Origin: a virus
DNA length: 25,037 bases
Direction: 5' to 3' (one strand)
Virus record (IMG/VR): IMGVR_UViG_3300018418_000126
Coordinates: 1-25,037 of that record
This document shows positions 7,512 to 15,390 of this stretch, piece after piece. The notes under the pieces were generated by a model. That model searched no databases and was not told where the DNA came from. It saw only the letters and a program-made list of their open reading frames with translations. Every line of letters begins with the position of its first letter. The stretch's first letter is position 1. A program made the position numbers and the translations under genes.

Positions 7512-10220
7512 TTAGAATGCTCCATGTAAACCTCTGGTCGCATCTCTGATTGCTTGGTCAGTGTGTCTGACTTCTGGCTTCTGTACTGCTGTAGTTGTAT
7601 TGTTATTGACTACATTATTTGTAGTTGATTGCGGAGCAACAACTACATTTGCAGCACCGCCTGCAGGGCCCGCTGAATCTAGTGCATTTGTATTCATAAA
7701 TTCACTTGCTGCAAGTTTTTGTTGAGCAGAGTTTAATTCATTGGCAGATGTATTGGAAACGTCTGTAGTTAAGCCCGATGCGTTTAGAGTGTTTGTTGGT
7801 GTTATGTCTTGAATAGCTGAAAGCTTTTCTCTTTCTGCATTCAAAAGTTCTGTTGTTTTATTCACTCGAATTTGACGTGCTTCTTTCACTGGATCGGGTC
7901 CTCTTTTGGGACTTTTTGTGTTGTCCAATGCTGCTTGTTCTTTTGCTAGTGTACTTTCCAATCTCTTTATGTTTTCTTCAATTTTCGCTTTTTCTTTTGC
8001 TTGTAGTATTTGGTTTTGTTTTTCGATATTATTTTCTGCTCCAGAAATCATTTCTTTTGCTAATTGAGTCAGTTCGTCTGTTCTTTGTTTAAAGAGTTCT
8101 GGATTTGTTGTAGAATCTGTATCAAATGGGCGCGGATTTTCTGGGGTGCGATACATATCATTATAAGTATCTCTTACCATCAATCCAATATCCAATGGAG
8201 CTCCCGCTAAGCTTGGTAAAAATATTCCAGCACCTTCGGCTGCAGCCCCGGCGAAATCTCCCTCAAACAATCTTCCTAATGCAAAAATTCCTCCAGCAGC
8301 AATTCCAAGAGCAGGTATTGCTTTTACTGCAACGCCTGCTGCATTTTTTGCCAGAATTTTCATTGCTAGTTTTTTATCGATTGATGATGCTACTTTTGCT
8401 ACACTACCTGTTTGGTTTCCGGCCGCACTGGCAGCACTATCGATTGCACTAACGACACCTCTATTGTTGCTCGCAATTATTTTTCTTGCCTCTTCTAATC
8501 CACCATCTCCCGCTCTTGGTGCTGCAGATGGTTTTGATATGGCCGGATCGACTTTTGTATTGACGCCATCCGACACTGCGACTTTTATATCGTTATTCTG
8601 GCGCAATCTCACTCGTTCATCGTTTATTAGGTCAGTCTGAGTTTTTCTTTGGTCAAATTTCTTAATTTCGGCATCTTGTGCTTTTTTTGCCAACGCCTCT
8701 CTTTCTAATCTTCGAAACTCTAAATCGGCCCGCTGTCTTTGTTTCATTTTTTCAATTTCTGCCTGTTGTTTCGCTTTTGCTCTTTTCTCTGCTTCTGCAT
8801 CGGCGTCAGTTTTTTTCGTATTATCGGCGTCAGTTTTTTTCGTATTATCGGCGTCAGTTTTTTTCGTATTATCGACGTTGTCAACATTAGGTTCTGGTAA
8901 ATCGGGTGCTCTAAACATTGATGTAAGTAGAGATCCGCCACCAATCGCAGCAGTCAATGCTAAAAGACCTTTTCCTAATTTTCCTCTAGTCAGTGCTTTT
9001 GTTAAATTTTTCAATCCGCCTAAAAGGCCTTTTCCCTTTCCTTTTCCTTTTCCTCCGAAAAGATTTCCTAAAAAAGAGCCCCCTGCAACTGCGCCAAAGA
9101 GATCAACTCCACTTCCATCTCCATCGCCGCCGGGCCCAGGCCCACCGCTTTCAGCAATCTCTTTGTTGGTTTTTGCAAGTGCTTGTAATGCTTTCAGTTG
9201 TGCAAGTTCTATTTGTTGATCTTTTTTTCTTTCTCTTCTGAGTTCTCTCTGTTCTTCTATTTCTAATGATGTTGGATTACCATCATTATCTTTCATCCAT
9301 TGTAGGAGATCTCTTATTTCTGCTAGATATGGTTCATTAGGCCCAAGTTTTGTATCTATTTCATCAAGTGCATCTTTATTTCCTGTGAGTTTATCTTCTA
9401 TTCCAGAATTATCTACAGGTTCTGGTTTATTCTCTGGTTGTGATACTGAAGGTTCACCATCTAATCCAAATTTTGACTTGAGTGCTTCAATCTCATCCAG
9501 TTCTGCTTTTTTAATTTCTCTATCTTGTTTGTCTGCTTGTGCTTTTCTAATGATGTTGTCTTTGATTTCATTTATGACTTCATCTTCAGATACGCCTCTA
9601 CGTCTTGCCTCTTCTTGGATTTTTTCTTGATCCATATTAGAACGAGCAATCGCATCTTCGTTTGATATTTGGGTTCGTAGTACTTCGAATTCTTTTTTCT
9701 CTAGAGCTCTTTGTGCTGCAATTCTTTCTTCTCTTTGTGCATTTTCTTCTTTAGCAGCTTTGCGTCTTTCTCTGAATTGTTTTACTCTTTGTCCAATAAA
9801 ACTTGCTCCCATTGCGAGAAGTGGACTTTGTGATAATGCTCCCGTTACAAGGCCTCCTATTCCATCAAGACTTCCTTTGACAGTATCAGATACTAAATCT
9901 TTGACGCCTGCTTTAAATCCAGCATTTTCTTTGATGCTTGCTTGAGAATTTTGAAGAACTTGTTCTAAGATTTGTCTTTCTCTATTAGAAACACCTTCCA
10001 TATTTTCAAGTGTTGCACTTAATGCATCAATTCTTTTTCTAGTTTCCGTGAATTGTTTTACAGAAACATCTGATTGTTGTTCAAAAATAGAACCTATTTC
10101 ATTCAATGCCTGTCTTGCACCGGCAGACTGAAGAGAAGCGCTCGCGTCTTTTACAGACTTCGCGAGCTCTTCTTGATTTTGTTTTACTAATTTTTCAGTT
10201 ACTGATGCAAGATCTGCCAT
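7512..10220 (-). CDS. Putative tape measure protein, 902 residues
   Basis: Very long, low-Cys protein with long helical coiled-coil stretches (about 1-100, 140-250, 300-350, 470-560 and 740-830) and three Gly/Ala-rich hydrophobic blocks: about 108-145, 375-445 (containing the KGKGKGKG run) and 620-680. This coiled-coil plus hydrophobic-block layout is typical of phage tape measure proteins, which fix tail length and help DNA pass the inner membrane. Position supports this: it is the last gene after gp54-like, gp26 and gp51, as tape measure genes follow their chaperones in other tailed phages. It is longer than T4 gp29 (590), implying a tail of about 135 nm at 0.15 nm per residue. Residues about 451-474 are a near-perfect 8-residue tandem repeat. 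Start overlaps the previous stop (TAATG). Alternative: another large tail-internal structural protein. Confidence 0.6.
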   Translation of the reverse strand: MADLASVTEKLVKQNQEELAKSVKDASASLQSAGARQALNEIGSIFEQQSDVSVKQFTETRKRIDALSATLENMEGVSNRERQILEQVLQNSQASIKENAGFKAGVKDLVSDTVKGSLDGIGGLVTGALSQSPLLAMGASFIGQRVKQFRERRKAAKEENAQREERIAAQRALEKKEFEVLRTQISNEDAIARSNMDQEKIQEEARRRGVSEDEVINEIKDNIIRKAQADKQDREIKKAELDEIEALKSKFGLDGEPSVSQPENKPEPVDNSGIEDKLTGNKDALDEIDTKLGPNEPYLAEIRDLLQWMKDNDGNPTSLEIEEQRELRRERKKDQQIELAQLKALQALAKTNKEIAESGGPGPGGDGDGSGVDLFGAVAGGSFLGNLFGGKGKGKGKGLLGGLKNLTKALTRGKLGKGLLALTAAIGGGSLLTSMFRAPDLPEPNVDNVDNTKKTDADNTKKTDADNTKKTDADAEAEKRAKAKQQAEIEKMKQRQRADLEFRRLEREALAKKAQDAEIKKFDQRKTQTDLINDERVRLRQNNDIKVAVSDGVNTKVDPAISKPSAAPRAGDGGLEEARKIIASNNRGVVSAIDSAASAAGNQTGSVAKVASSIDKKLAMKILAKNAAGVAVKAIPALGIAAGGIFALGRLFEGDFAGAAAEGAGIFLPSLAGAPLDIGLMVRDTYNDMYRTPENPRPFDTDSTTNPELFKQRTDELTQLAKEMISGAENNIEKQNQILQAKEKAKIEENIKRLESTLAKEQAALDNTKSPKRGPDPVKEARQIRVNKTTELLNAEREKLSAIQDITPTNTLNASGLTTDVSNTSANELNSAQQKLAASEFMNTNALDSAGPAGGAANVVVAPQSTTNNVVNNNTTTAVQKPEVRHTDQAIRDATRGLHGAF
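8799..8870 (-). repeat. Three 24-bp tandem repeats inside the 902-residue protein gene
   Basis: Three identical 24-base units at 8799-8822, 8823-8846 and 8847-8870, with partial units at the edges, encode repeats of ADNTKKTD in frame. The multiple of three keeps the frame, so copy number could vary without breaking the protein. Each unit carries a 7-A run on the coding strand. Confidence 0.9.
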
Positions 10221-10522
10221 TATTTTCTACTCATGTAAGCTTGAGCACCAAAATAAAAACCAACAATAGATGCCTGTGCAATATAAAATAATCCGAATAA
10301 ATCAGATAAAGCATTTACTCTAGAGTCTGATAAAACTGGTGTGAATAATACAATAGTAAAAATTAACATAGAAGCCAAAGATATCCAACTCATTTTCTTT
10401 TGAGTCTCTGCCTTTTCTTCGGCTCTTTCTATTTCAAGCATTTCTTTTTTCAATGCGATTTCTTCTTGACTCACTTTTCCATCTCCATGTAGGTCAAAAT
10501 TAATTTCCTCTGCTGGTGCCAT
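10220..10522 (-). CDS. EF-hand-like membrane protein, 100 residues
   Basis: An N-terminal EF-hand-like loop DLHGDGKVSQEE (residues 10-21: Asp1, Asp5, Gly6, Val8, Glu12; position 3 is His rather than Asp/Asn) is followed by a charged helix (about 22-43) and two transmembrane segments, about 45-64 and 73-95, ending QAYMSRK. It sits between the gp51 frame and the 902-residue protein in the tail operon, overlapping the start of the latter by one base. The topology (cytoplasmic charged N-terminus, short hairpin) resembles holin-like and other small phage membrane proteins. Its position suggests a late role, either in lysis or with the tape measure protein at the membrane. No firm function. Ribosome site AAGGAAAT is seven bases before the ATG. 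Confidence 0.75.
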   Translation of the reverse strand: MAPAEEINFDLHGDGKVSQEEIALKKEMLEIERAEEKAETQKKMSWISLASMLIFTIVLFTPVLSDSRVNALSDLFGLFYIAQASIVGFYFGAQAYMSRK

Positions 10523-10531
10523 TTGATTTCC

Positions 10532-10762
10532 TTATTGATTTTGTTCTCTTCGTTTCTTTTCTTCGTTTAAATAATTAATCAATAAATTAAGATAGATTTC
10601 TCTTTCCCACGGAATCATATTTTCCAATTCACTCAAACTATATTTATGATGATGCATTAACGCAAAGTTATTCCTATACAAAGACGCGAGGGATTCATGA
10701 TTTAAGGTTAGGAAAAAAAATCGGAAATGCCTCTTACTTTCATTTCTTTTTGAAATCCACAC
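10532..10762 (-). CDS. 51: gp51-like baseplate hub assembly protein (frameshifted frame)
   Basis: The open frame runs from a GTG inside gp26 to a stop at 10532. The recognisable part starts at LNHESLASLYRNNFALMHHH and continues YSLSELENMIPWEREIYLN, the gp51 pattern (FAxMHxxxYSxxELExMIPWERxxY). T4 gp51 catalyses baseplate hub assembly. There is no good independent start: the GTG lies within gp26 without a ribosome site, and the conserved region begins right at the gp26 stop. The frame is -1 to gp26 and joins it at the U8 run at 10713-10720. The product is therefore probably a gp26-gp51 fusion, with standalone gp51 unlikely. Annotated coordinates are those of the open frame, not of an independent gene. 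Confidence 0.68.
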   Translation of the reverse strand: MWISKRNESKRHFRFFFLTLNHESLASLYRNNFALMHHHKYSLSELENMIPWEREIYLNLLINYLNEEKKRREQNQ

Positions 10763-11433
10763 TTAGGACATCTAATATTCACTTCACATACTGTTTCTGG
10801 CATATTTTCAAAGAAGTCATTTATTAAATCTAATTGTTTTTGTGTCAGATTTTCAATAAACTCCGATACTTCTTCAATAGTATAATCTGAAACATTGTGC
10901 ATATCATCTGCATCCCAGATAAATTCTACGCAACTTGCAATTAATTTCACCAAATCATCATAATCTTCTGCTGATAAAAGCCTATTTAATGTTTCAAAAT
11001 CAGGATATTTCATTATAAGACCAATTTCATCTGTTAGTTCTATTTTATTTGAATATCCTTCTTGTTCTGTGTTGACTCTAACTTGGTCTAAGTCAAGCAA
11101 AAAAGGTAATTGACAATCCCCTGGCCCGTTTTCCTTTTCTGAACAATTTTCTTTTTTATAATTCAAATTAATAATATTTCCAACAGATTTTGATCTGAGT
11201 TGAATGAATAGATATTCTATATCAAATGTAGATAATTTTTCTACATCAATATCATTTAATACGCAATTTCTTATTATTTGTTTAACTGCATCAATTTTTT
11301 CTTCTACTGTCTCTCCTTCTTGAGCCATCAAAAGAATTTTCTCTTCTTTGACCAGAAATGGCCTATATCTTATTTTTTTATTTGTCGATGGCAACTTCAA
11401 TTCATAAGTTGGTGTATCAATTTTTGGTAACAT
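10708..11433 (-). CDS. 26: gp26-like baseplate hub / tail assembly protein
   Basis: 241 residues, in the T4 baseplate family that contains gp26. Seen: N-terminal LPKIDTPTYELKLPSTNKKI, typical of the family start, then FLVKEEKILLMA and EKIDAVKQIIRNCV. A zinc ribbon-like pair of Cys clusters is suggested by ENCSEKENGPGDC in the middle and CEVNIRCPKC near the end. The protein ends GISDFFS. gp26 acts in hub assembly with gp51, gp27, gp28 and gp29. A good ribosome site (GAGGAAAT) precedes the ATG. The last codons lie on a run of eight U just before the stop, giving a canonical U-UUU-UUU slippery heptamer that would lead into the gp51 frame. Confidence 0.86.
   Translation of the reverse strand: MLPKIDTPTYELKLPSTNKKIRYRPFLVKEEKILLMAQEGETVEEKIDAVKQIIRNCVLNDIDVEKLSTFDIEYLFIQLRSKSVGNIINLNYKKENCSEKENGPGDCQLPFLLDLDQVRVNTEQEGYSNKIELTDEIGLIMKYPDFETLNRLLSAEDYDDLVKLIASCVEFIWDADDMHNVSDYTIEEVSEFIENLTQKQLDLINDFFENMPETVCEVNIRCPKCGFQKEMKVRGISDFFS
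10713..10720 (-). promoter_or_regulatory. Candidate -1 ribosomal frameshift site, gp26 to gp51
   Basis: On the coding strand the gp26 frame reads gat ttt ttt tcc taa, so the heptamer T TTT TTT fits X XXY YYZ exactly and lies one codon before the stop. The -1 frame is open through gp51. T4 has 26 and 51 as neighbours, and lambda-type G/GT tail chaperones use a similar overlapping -1 arrangement. Confidence 0.6.
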
Positions 11434-11455: not shown

Positions 11456-12250
11456 TTAAAATGGTATTCTAAAAGATGAACGTAAATTTGAAATTCTATT
11501 ATTTATTTGGTTTTGTGTAGCTTGAAATCTCTGACTTACTTGGGACTGTAAGTTGGTAACTTGTCCTTGAATATTGTTACCTACAGTATTACGAAATTCT
11601 CCGACATAATCTCTCCCGGCCCTTTCAGCCAATTGGTCGAGTGTCGCAAATGGTAGTGAGCTCACTGGAGAATTTGCTGGGTATCCAGATGAAAATTGCC
11701 CCGTTTCTGTTGTTCTATTCTCCAAAACCGTTTCTGAACTATATTTTAGATATGACATGGTAATTTGGCATTGTGCAACATCATCATTTCCATATGCAAA
11801 TGAAACCTCTCCTATTGATAATGGAAATGCGTCTTGAAACTCATGCACACTCATAAGAACATCTTTTTCATTGAAAACTAGCAATCTAAGTTTTCCATTA
11901 TATTCTGTTGAATATCTTATTTTATGGTCTTGATAATCGATAACATAATGCATCCAGTTTTCAAACCATTCTCTCTCTTTTAGTCCTTCGCTCAAATAAA
12001 TACTAAAAGTCAATTGGTCATATGTGGTGGAATATGGTGCTTGTCTTACAGGCCCATATACTTTTGTCTCTGTTGTTGCTAATGATTTTTGCGGAAGAGT
12101 TATGGATGGAACTCTAAATCTCAGATCTTGAGATCCCATTTCTCTAATGTTATTTACTGCAATAGGAGGATGAACAAACAATTCATATCTATTTGCTTTT
12201 GTAAATCCAAGTTTTCCTACATTACTTATGAATTCAGATATTGAGGCCAT
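11456..12250 (-). CDS. 54: gp54-like tail tube initiator (gp19 family fold)
   Basis: 264 residues. The tail tube family signature is visible: YSTTYDQLTFSIYLSEGL, KEREWFENWMHYVID, then FQDAFPLSIGEVSFAYGNDD with a QITMSYLKY strand. These match the T4 gp19 tail-tube family, which also includes gp48 and gp54. The C-terminal 60 residues (from about 200) are a Gln/Arg/Asn-rich helical tail, longer than in a plain gp19 tube subunit. Together with location beside gp26/gp51 rather than the sheath gene, this favours gp54, which caps the baseplate hub and starts tube polymerisation. It could instead be a second gp48/gp19-like protein. Eight bases separate it from the previous gene. Confidence 0.68.
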   Translation of the reverse strand: MASISEFISNVGKLGFTKANRYELFVHPPIAVNNIREMGSQDLRFRVPSITLPQKSLATTETKVYGPVRQAPYSTTYDQLTFSIYLSEGLKEREWFENWMHYVIDYQDHKIRYSTEYNGKLRLLVFNEKDVLMSVHEFQDAFPLSIGEVSFAYGNDDVAQCQITMSYLKYSSETVLENRTTETGQFSSGYPANSPVSSLPFATLDQLAERAGRDYVGEFRNTVGNNIQGQVTNLQSQVSQRFQATQNQINNRISNLRSSFRIPF

Positions 12251-14154: not shown

Positions 14155-15390
14155 ATGTTTAAAAATATTCAAAATATAGTATATGATATGAACCTTGATG
14201 GTAGGGTTCGCCCAGTAAAGAATATTTTTAAATATTCTTACATAATTCAATCATATGTAAATAATCCATTGTCAACTTTTGACTATACTGTTTCTGACAG
14301 CGATTCAGCAGAATTGATTGCAGCTCGTTATTATGGAGATCCAGAATTATCTTGGATAATATTACTTCTAAATGATATTAAAGATATTTACAGCGAATGG
14401 CCAAAATCAGAATATTCTTTGATGAATTATTTAAAGAGAAATTATAATCCCGAAAGATTATCATATTTTGACCTAAAAAGAGTAAAGGCGCTGACAAAGA
14501 AAAATAATATTCCTGATCCAAAAGACGGCGATGTAATATATTTGGAAGATTTGGATCAGACTCATAAGTTTGATGGCCCAAGTCAAAATTGGAATTTTAT
14601 TTCTAATGGAAAACCACAATCAAGAATTTACAATAAAGAATATTTTATAACTTTAAACCAATATGATACTCCACAGTCATTTGTAGTTTCTTCAAAAACC
14701 TCAAAAATACCTGTCACAAATATGACTCTTAGAATTTATAGAGGTTCTACTGTAAATATAAACTTTACAGGACAAGATGTTTCTAGATTATACATTACTA
14801 GAGATGATGGTGGTAGTTTCACTTCTGAGAATTATTTTAGAGAATATAGAGAAGGGATTGAAAATAATAGATTGTCAAATGGATTATTGACATTTAATGT
14901 TCCTATGGATGCGCCTAATAGATTATATTATCAATCTTCTAAGTATAGAGATGTGAGAGGTTCTATTGATATTTTAAATAGGGAAGATGAGTATTATGTT
15001 GAACATTCTGATAAAAATTCCTTACAGCAAAGAAGCGGCAATAGAGTAGGACAACTTGCTAGAGTTGGAAGTGATTTTTATATTTGGAACGGAAATATTA
15101 AAACTATAAACAATTTTATTAGTACTTGGGAAAAATTGACAACTGATAGTAAAGTTCTTCATTTAGACATTGCAAAAAAAATTCCTAAACATTATATACA
15201 CACAGAATATGACCATATTATTTCTTCCGAAACATATACACATTTATCCGATCAAGAAAAAAAATTATATAAAAAATATTCATCATATGAATATGAATTT
15301 GATCTAAATGAAAATAATAGAATAATAAAAATTATGAGAAGAGAAGTTCTTTCAGAATTTTTGAAAGAATGGGAAAGGATTTCTAAGTAA
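14155..15390 (+). CDS. 53: gp53-like baseplate wedge protein, with long C-terminal extension
   Basis: 411 residues. The N-terminal 120 match gp53: YSYIIQSYVNNPLSTFDYTV, then SAELIAARYYGDPELSWIILLLND and SLMNYLKRNY. T4 gp53 has 196 residues; this protein carries about 215 extra residues with beta-rich middle and an acidic/basic C-terminus (about 345-411, helical). The family links adjacent wedges via a LysM-like fold. Starts two bases after gp48 and overlaps the next gene by one base. The extension could be a structural replacement for another wedge subunit. Confidence 0.88.
   Translation: MFKNIQNIVYDMNLDGRVRPVKNIFKYSYIIQSYVNNPLSTFDYTVSDSDSAELIAARYYGDPELSWIILLLNDIKDIYSEWPKSEYSLMNYLKRNYNPERLSYFDLKRVKALTKKNNIPDPKDGDVIYLEDLDQTHKFDGPSQNWNFISNGKPQSRIYNKEYFITLNQYDTPQSFVVSSKTSKIPVTNMTLRIYRGSTVNINFTGQDVSRLYITRDDGGSFTSENYFREYREGIENNRLSNGLLTFNVPMDAPNRLYYQSSKYRDVRGSIDILNREDEYYVEHSDKNSLQQRSGNRVGQLARVGSDFYIWNGNIKTINNFISTWEKLTTDSKVLHLDIAKKIPKHYIHTEYDHIISSETYTHLSDQEKKLYKKYSSYEYEFDLNENNRIIKIMRREVLSEFLKEWERISK

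Follow-up and report, generated by a model that had tools for sequence, protein, structure and literature searches.

The virus studied here, a marine T4-like phage, very likely makes two forms of one tail assembly chaperone, a short form ending at the gene 26 stop codon and a long form continuing into a gp51-like tail, by -1 ribosomal frameshifting at a T-TTT-TTT heptamer at the end of that gene. This reading is drawn from sequence comparisons of the window, i.e., the whole analyzed stretch of 25,037 nucleotides (positions 1 to 25,037 of IMG/VR record IMGVR_UViG_3300018418_000126), with its relatives. Directly observed are the site's sequence, frame and conservation, the selection acting on the -1 reading frame, and the domains of which T4 gp51 is composed. 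A short and a long tail chaperone made as a pair is an already known kind of system, and the window constitutes a well-supported new example of it.

The overlap of gene 26 with a gp51-like frame

The features of the locus and its neighborhood, all on the minus strand, are:

11456..12250 (-): tail-tube-type protein, encoded ahead of gene 26 (phrog_45, tail tube, E 5e-31)
11433..10708 (-): gene 26, predicted short tail assembly chaperone (TAC-N), 241 aa (Pfam T4_baseplate PF12322, E 4.8e-61; phrog_150, E 3.5e-63)
10725..10738 (-): weak AGAGG stretch resembling a Shine-Dalgarno sequence, ahead of the heptamer and a possible stimulator (duplex -5.8 kcal/mol, where the group mean peaks)
10720-10714 (-): slippery heptamer T-TTT-TTT, read from the sequence (codons GAT TTT TTT TCC TAA)
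10708..10710 (-): gp26 stop TAA, one sense codon (TCC) past the heptamer
10532..10714 (-): 60-residue gp51 tail entered by the predicted -1 slip (FLTLNHESL...REQNQ), followed by a stop (phrog_634, E 4e-27)
10220..10522 (-): 100-aa protein encoded between gene 26 and the probable tape measure gene (phrog_27150, E 1e-8)
7512..10220 (-): 902-aa probable tape measure protein, from position and length, with an HTVC008M counterpart annotated as tape measure (synteny)

The original prediction had gp26 ending one codon past a U-UUU-UUU heptamer in the right frame, with an open -1 frame leading into a gp51 motif, and both descriptions are correct. Free of stop codons between 10762 and 10532, the -1 frame overlaps gene 26 at precisely 10708-10762, and its ORF matches phrog_634, the gp51 family, as well as the C-terminal end of phrog_150, the gp26 family (E 2.7e-7). 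The heptamer is embedded in a run of eight Ts. The in-frame pattern T-TTT-TTY occurs a single time across the 18 ORFs of the window (5,938 codons), at the end of gene 26, and the expectation for a canonical X-XXY-YYZ heptamer within the last five codons of an ORF is ~0.04. As in dnaX-type sites, an X-XXY-YYZ heptamer stands in frame, and as in systems of the G/GT type, overlapping ORFs are joined by a -1 shift at a heptamer near the end of the first.

From this arrangement we infer the slippage itself, along with its rate and the expression and ratio of the two products. Ribosomes translating gene 26 would arrive at GAT-TTT-TTT-TCC-TAA, where the majority would terminate to release the 241-aa short chaperone; a minority would slip by -1 with both tRNA-Phe on T-TTT-TTT, pass the TAA and add the 60 residues of the tail. 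The predicted product, gp26-51, comprises gp26 residues 1-240 followed by this tail, i.e., 300 aa. Like lambda gpG and gpGT, the two forms would hold the tape measure protein and recruit the tail tube protein during tail assembly.

The heptamer is the only general element of the signal that is demonstrated; two further candidates were a Shine-Dalgarno-like stimulator and a downstream RNA structure. The Shine-Dalgarno-like stretch peaks 11-18 nt ahead of the heptamer across the group (mean -6.5 vs -5.1 kcal/mol after synonymous recoding); this trend is significant, but it is tied to conserved R/E-G residues, the stretch of the window is no better than its synonymous recodings (-5.8 vs -6.3 kcal/mol), and T4-type genes have it too. 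These results for the window count against the frameshift reading, as does its lack of a predicted downstream stem-loop (z +0.68). A downstream RNA stimulator was rejected as a general element, being lineage-specific elsewhere, with strong hairpins in S-PM2 (z -7.9), L042 (z -4.8), S-WAM1 (z -4.2) and P-SSM2 (z -3.8). In S-PM2, L042 and P-SSM2 the hairpin lies directly past the gp26 stop (loci L082 4010-4060, L112 3210-3250 and L042 3720-3760) and is a possible lineage-specific stimulator of frameshifting.

Conservation of the heptamer and selection in the -1 frame

We compared 80 IMG/VR loci and regions of annotated phages, with T4 and its T4-type relatives as controls. Removal of near-duplicates left 73 representatives, viz., 58 with the overlapping single-gene arrangement, 12 of the T4 type and three distant ones. 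An in-frame NNT-TTT-TTN is present in 58/58 of the overlapping set; the frameshift group being itself defined by the presence of the heptamer, the meaningful count is 58 of the 61 non-T4-type representatives with the heptamer and 3/61 without it. The heptamer is retained across Kyanoviridae, Schizotequatrovirus, Nanhuvirus, Emdodecavirus, Pootjesviridae and Menderavirus, and its spacing to the stop is exactly one codon in 53/58. In two loci, L043 (3690-3745) and L058 (3675-3730), the zero frame continues for eight codons beyond the heptamer before reaching a stop.

Seven different codons (GAT, AGT, AAT, TCT, CGT, GCT and GGT) fill the X position among the 58 representatives, so that the residue preceding the two phenylalanines may be Asp, Ser, Asn, Arg, Ala or Gly. 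The third base of this codon is T in every one of them, where codon usage predicts 63%, and the first Phe codon is invariably TTT, where it predicts 65%; the naive probabilities, which treat relatives as independent and are not exact values, are ~1e-13 for each. The heptamer is found in 0/12 of the T4-type representatives, which come from the kind of phage where full-length gp51 has its own gene and which encode the same FF motif differently (GAG-TTC-TTT in T4 itself). A point against the frameshift reading is that the three distant relatives, the Ackermannviridae GG32 and KpS110 and the Vibrio phage D507, have ATT-TTC or CTT-TTC instead of a canonical heptamer. Their loci (L106 3200-3410, L113 3250-3460 and L105 3180-3410) display an open -1 frame and a gp51-like motif after gp26.

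Within the conserved block of the gp51 tail, the -1 frame contains 0 stops in the wider lineage of the window, compared with 31 and 35 for the two alternative frames; its median dN is 0.29 vs a dS of 0.78. The block thus evolves as protein, under purifying selection, in the -1 frame only. The original prediction had further stated that this frame offers no start for gp51 beyond a GTG inside gp26. This is not literally the case, as a TTG at 10681 and an ATG at 10657 are also available in the window, but both lie past the start of the conserved block. The GTG itself, at 10762, was rejected as a gp51 start: it is not conserved, and the open stretch upstream disappears in close relatives. With no usable start and with selection on the block, ribosomes must enter the -1 frame from upstream, and the heptamer is the conserved candidate for the point of entry. 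Together, the conservation of the heptamer, its absence where a separate full-length gp51 exists and the selection on a part of the -1 frame that precedes every usable start support -1 frameshifting, and the fusion of gp26 to gp51 by this means, as originally proposed, is very likely.

These data also bear on two other ways in which the gp51 frame might be expressed. Were gp51 a separate small protein translated by reinitiation near or after the gp26 stop, the T run would be incidental; the deposited annotations of S-PM2, P-SSM2, HTVC008M and Melnitz-3 do use such starts, and in 23/58 representatives (~40%) an ATG, GTG or TTG precedes the block in the -1 frame, at times overlapping the gp26 stop. 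The remaining 35/58, among them the close relatives of the window, lack any such codon ahead of the block; in L043 there is none as far as its ENM motif, and in several representatives the -1 frame opens precisely at the heptamer. Moreover, the ATG at +53 used in the HTVC008M annotation omits the block under purifying selection, neither the invariant heptamer nor its loss in T4-type phages is accounted for, and T4 gp51 carries a gp26-like domain covalently attached. We therefore consider reinitiation very unlikely as the general explanation. Slippage of the RNA polymerase rather than the ribosome is more improbable still, to the point of being barely credible. The eight Ts of the window are near the run length at which bacterial polymerases slip, but the Z base is not T in 38/58, leaving a run of only six Ts with the heptamer and its frame still kept, and transcript slippage has no need of heptamer phasing. 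Ribosomal frameshifting to a gp26-51 fusion hence remains our preferred reading, beside which coupled reinitiation may add free gp51 in the lineages with starts ahead of the block. In KVP40-type and Rhizobium phages (L101 2550-2560, L109 2550-2560 and L110 2510-2520), an ATG in the -1 frame overlaps the gp26 stop in the form TAATG or TGATG.

The T4 counterparts and a probable chaperone role

The entire PF12322 profile is matched by T4 gp51 residues 1-201 (E 3.9e-52), and phrog_634 by the C-terminus of the protein. The gp26-51 fusion, which likewise couples a PF12322 domain to the gp51 C-terminal tail, aligns with T4 gp51 straight across the junction, the tail being collinear with T4 gp51 192-244. 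Comparison of the gp26 family with the T4-type gp51 family using hhalign recovers the relationship over gp26 residues 20-239 (E 8.5e-10), and AlphaFold2 models of gp26 and a T4-type gp51 (mean pLDDT 89 and 86) show their structural elements in the same order, the C-terminal end of gp51 having additional helices. Thus, the gp26 of the window is homologous to T4 gp26 and gp26-51 has the domain order of T4 gp51; unlike the single frameshifting gene seen here, T4 has two divergent genes and no heptamer. Two PF12322 genes are present in 5/5 T4-type phages, as against one in the single-gene, frameshift-type phages searched, including G001, a near-identical relative of the window with 203,815 bases. 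On these sequence relationships, T4 encodes the two forms separately, the short one in gene 26 and the long one in gene 51, which has its own gp26-like domain and tail. That T4 gp51 is a gp26-like domain plus the gp51 tail in turn supports gp26 and gp26-51 as a short/long pair, in line with the original prediction of a T4-type chaperone pair.

In a tree of the domain, T4 gp26 and T4 gp51 each fall in a well-supported clade of their own, distinct from the frameshift group; the tree is unrooted and has long branches, and so does not give the direction of change between one gene and two. One scenario, for which we see the chances as evenly balanced, is that the single frameshifting 26/51 gene is older and that the T4 pair arose by duplication, one copy becoming short-only and the other fused to the tail, with later decay of the slippery site; reinitiation at a start codon that overlaps the stop may give certain marine and vibrio lineages a third product, the free gp51 tail.

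With respect to genomic context, the gene lies between the tail tube and tape measure genes, as in G/GT-type systems, with the qualification that the 100-aa gene intervenes and that the tape measure gene is identified by position only. Uncharacterized genes of similar size occupy the position of the 100-aa protein in HTVC008M, Melnitz-3, phiM12 and RL2RES. Elsewhere in the window, the N-terminus of a 411-aa ORF (14155-15390) matches the baseplate wedge protein gp53 and its residues 140-274 match a "baseplate wedge tail fiber protein connector" family, which suggests a fused baseplate protein.

The database names of the two proteins and older T4 genetics ("baseplate hub" and "hub assembly catalyst"; PMC3004832) would allow the fusion to be real and yet serve hub assembly, with gp26 and gp51 being parts of the baseplate hub as annotated. 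We consider this unlikely, though less so than either alternative to ribosomal frameshifting discussed above. The same T4 review describes gp26 and gp51 as hub assembly chaperones, with gp51 needed for assembly and absent from the particle (PMC3004832), and a 2022 paper in Virology is cited elsewhere as the source for the chaperone genes of T4-like phages. Further, the gene lies beside the tape-measure-like gene, and its short/long frameshift layout is that of known chaperones. The fold of gp26 also hints in this direction: its only coherent match in the PDB is the HK97 tail assembly chaperone gp13 (2ob9; probability 0.63, TMt 0.50, rmsd 3.7 A), a weak match at E 1.5. Searching the PDB by sequence with the gp26 profile returned no match, and searching it by fold with the model of T4-type gp51 returned no coherent match. 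Homology, position and the published work on T4 thus make gp26 and gp26-51 very probably a short/long pair of tail chaperones.

Related systems and implications for T4-like phages

A conserved -1 frameshift has reportedly been described by Xu, Hendrix and Duda (2004) in tail assembly chaperones of the lambda gpG/gpGT type. Like these, the locus in the window has two ORFs that overlap, placed between the genes for tail tube and tape measure, and a heptamer shortly before the stop of the first, with the -1 fusion appending a short C-terminal domain; it differs from gpG in that gp26 is a PF12322 protein with a Cys-rich segment and in that the heptamer takes the form T-TTT-TTN. The same heptamer, overlap and gp51 tail are found in S-PM2, P-SSM2, HTVC008M, Melnitz-3 and the KVP40-type vibriophages, although the annotations there either give separate genes whose starts are inconsistent or omit gp51; some of these phages also have a hairpin downstream or a start codon that overlaps the stop. 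Another parallel is the chaperone locus of Pseudomonas phage Adele and Vandenendeviridae, where the -1 frameshift takes place at a poly-T motif closing the short ORF, the phage family and the motif (GTTTTT) being different (PMC12846349).

Our search recovered no open paper on gp26/gp51 frameshifting. Both the PRFect paper (PMC10885494) and the Adele paper (PMC12846349) cite Vladimirov, Gautam and Davidson (2022) for the chaperone genes of T4-like phages; the former mentions that some T4-like phages use a short gene and a fused long gene in place of frameshifting (PMC10885494), and the latter that the short-chaperone genes of T4-like phages are known to carry poly-T signals (PMC12846349). To judge from these citations, the marine case may have been partly or wholly published there.

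Frameshifting on gene 26 accounts for an oddity in the length of cyanophage gp51, which was reported to be ~20% of the length of T4 gp51 and to be without its first ~200 residues, in a study that leaves frameshifting unmentioned (Sullivan et al. 2010; PMC3037559). The missing residues would be supplied by gp26 via the frameshift. It is further implied that in many marine T4-like genomes the annotation of gp51 is wrong or absent. More generally, the "baseplate hub" protein gp26 and the "hub assembly catalyst" gp51 are recast as two probable forms of one chaperone, with a clear link from a single frameshifting gene to the two-gene version of T4.
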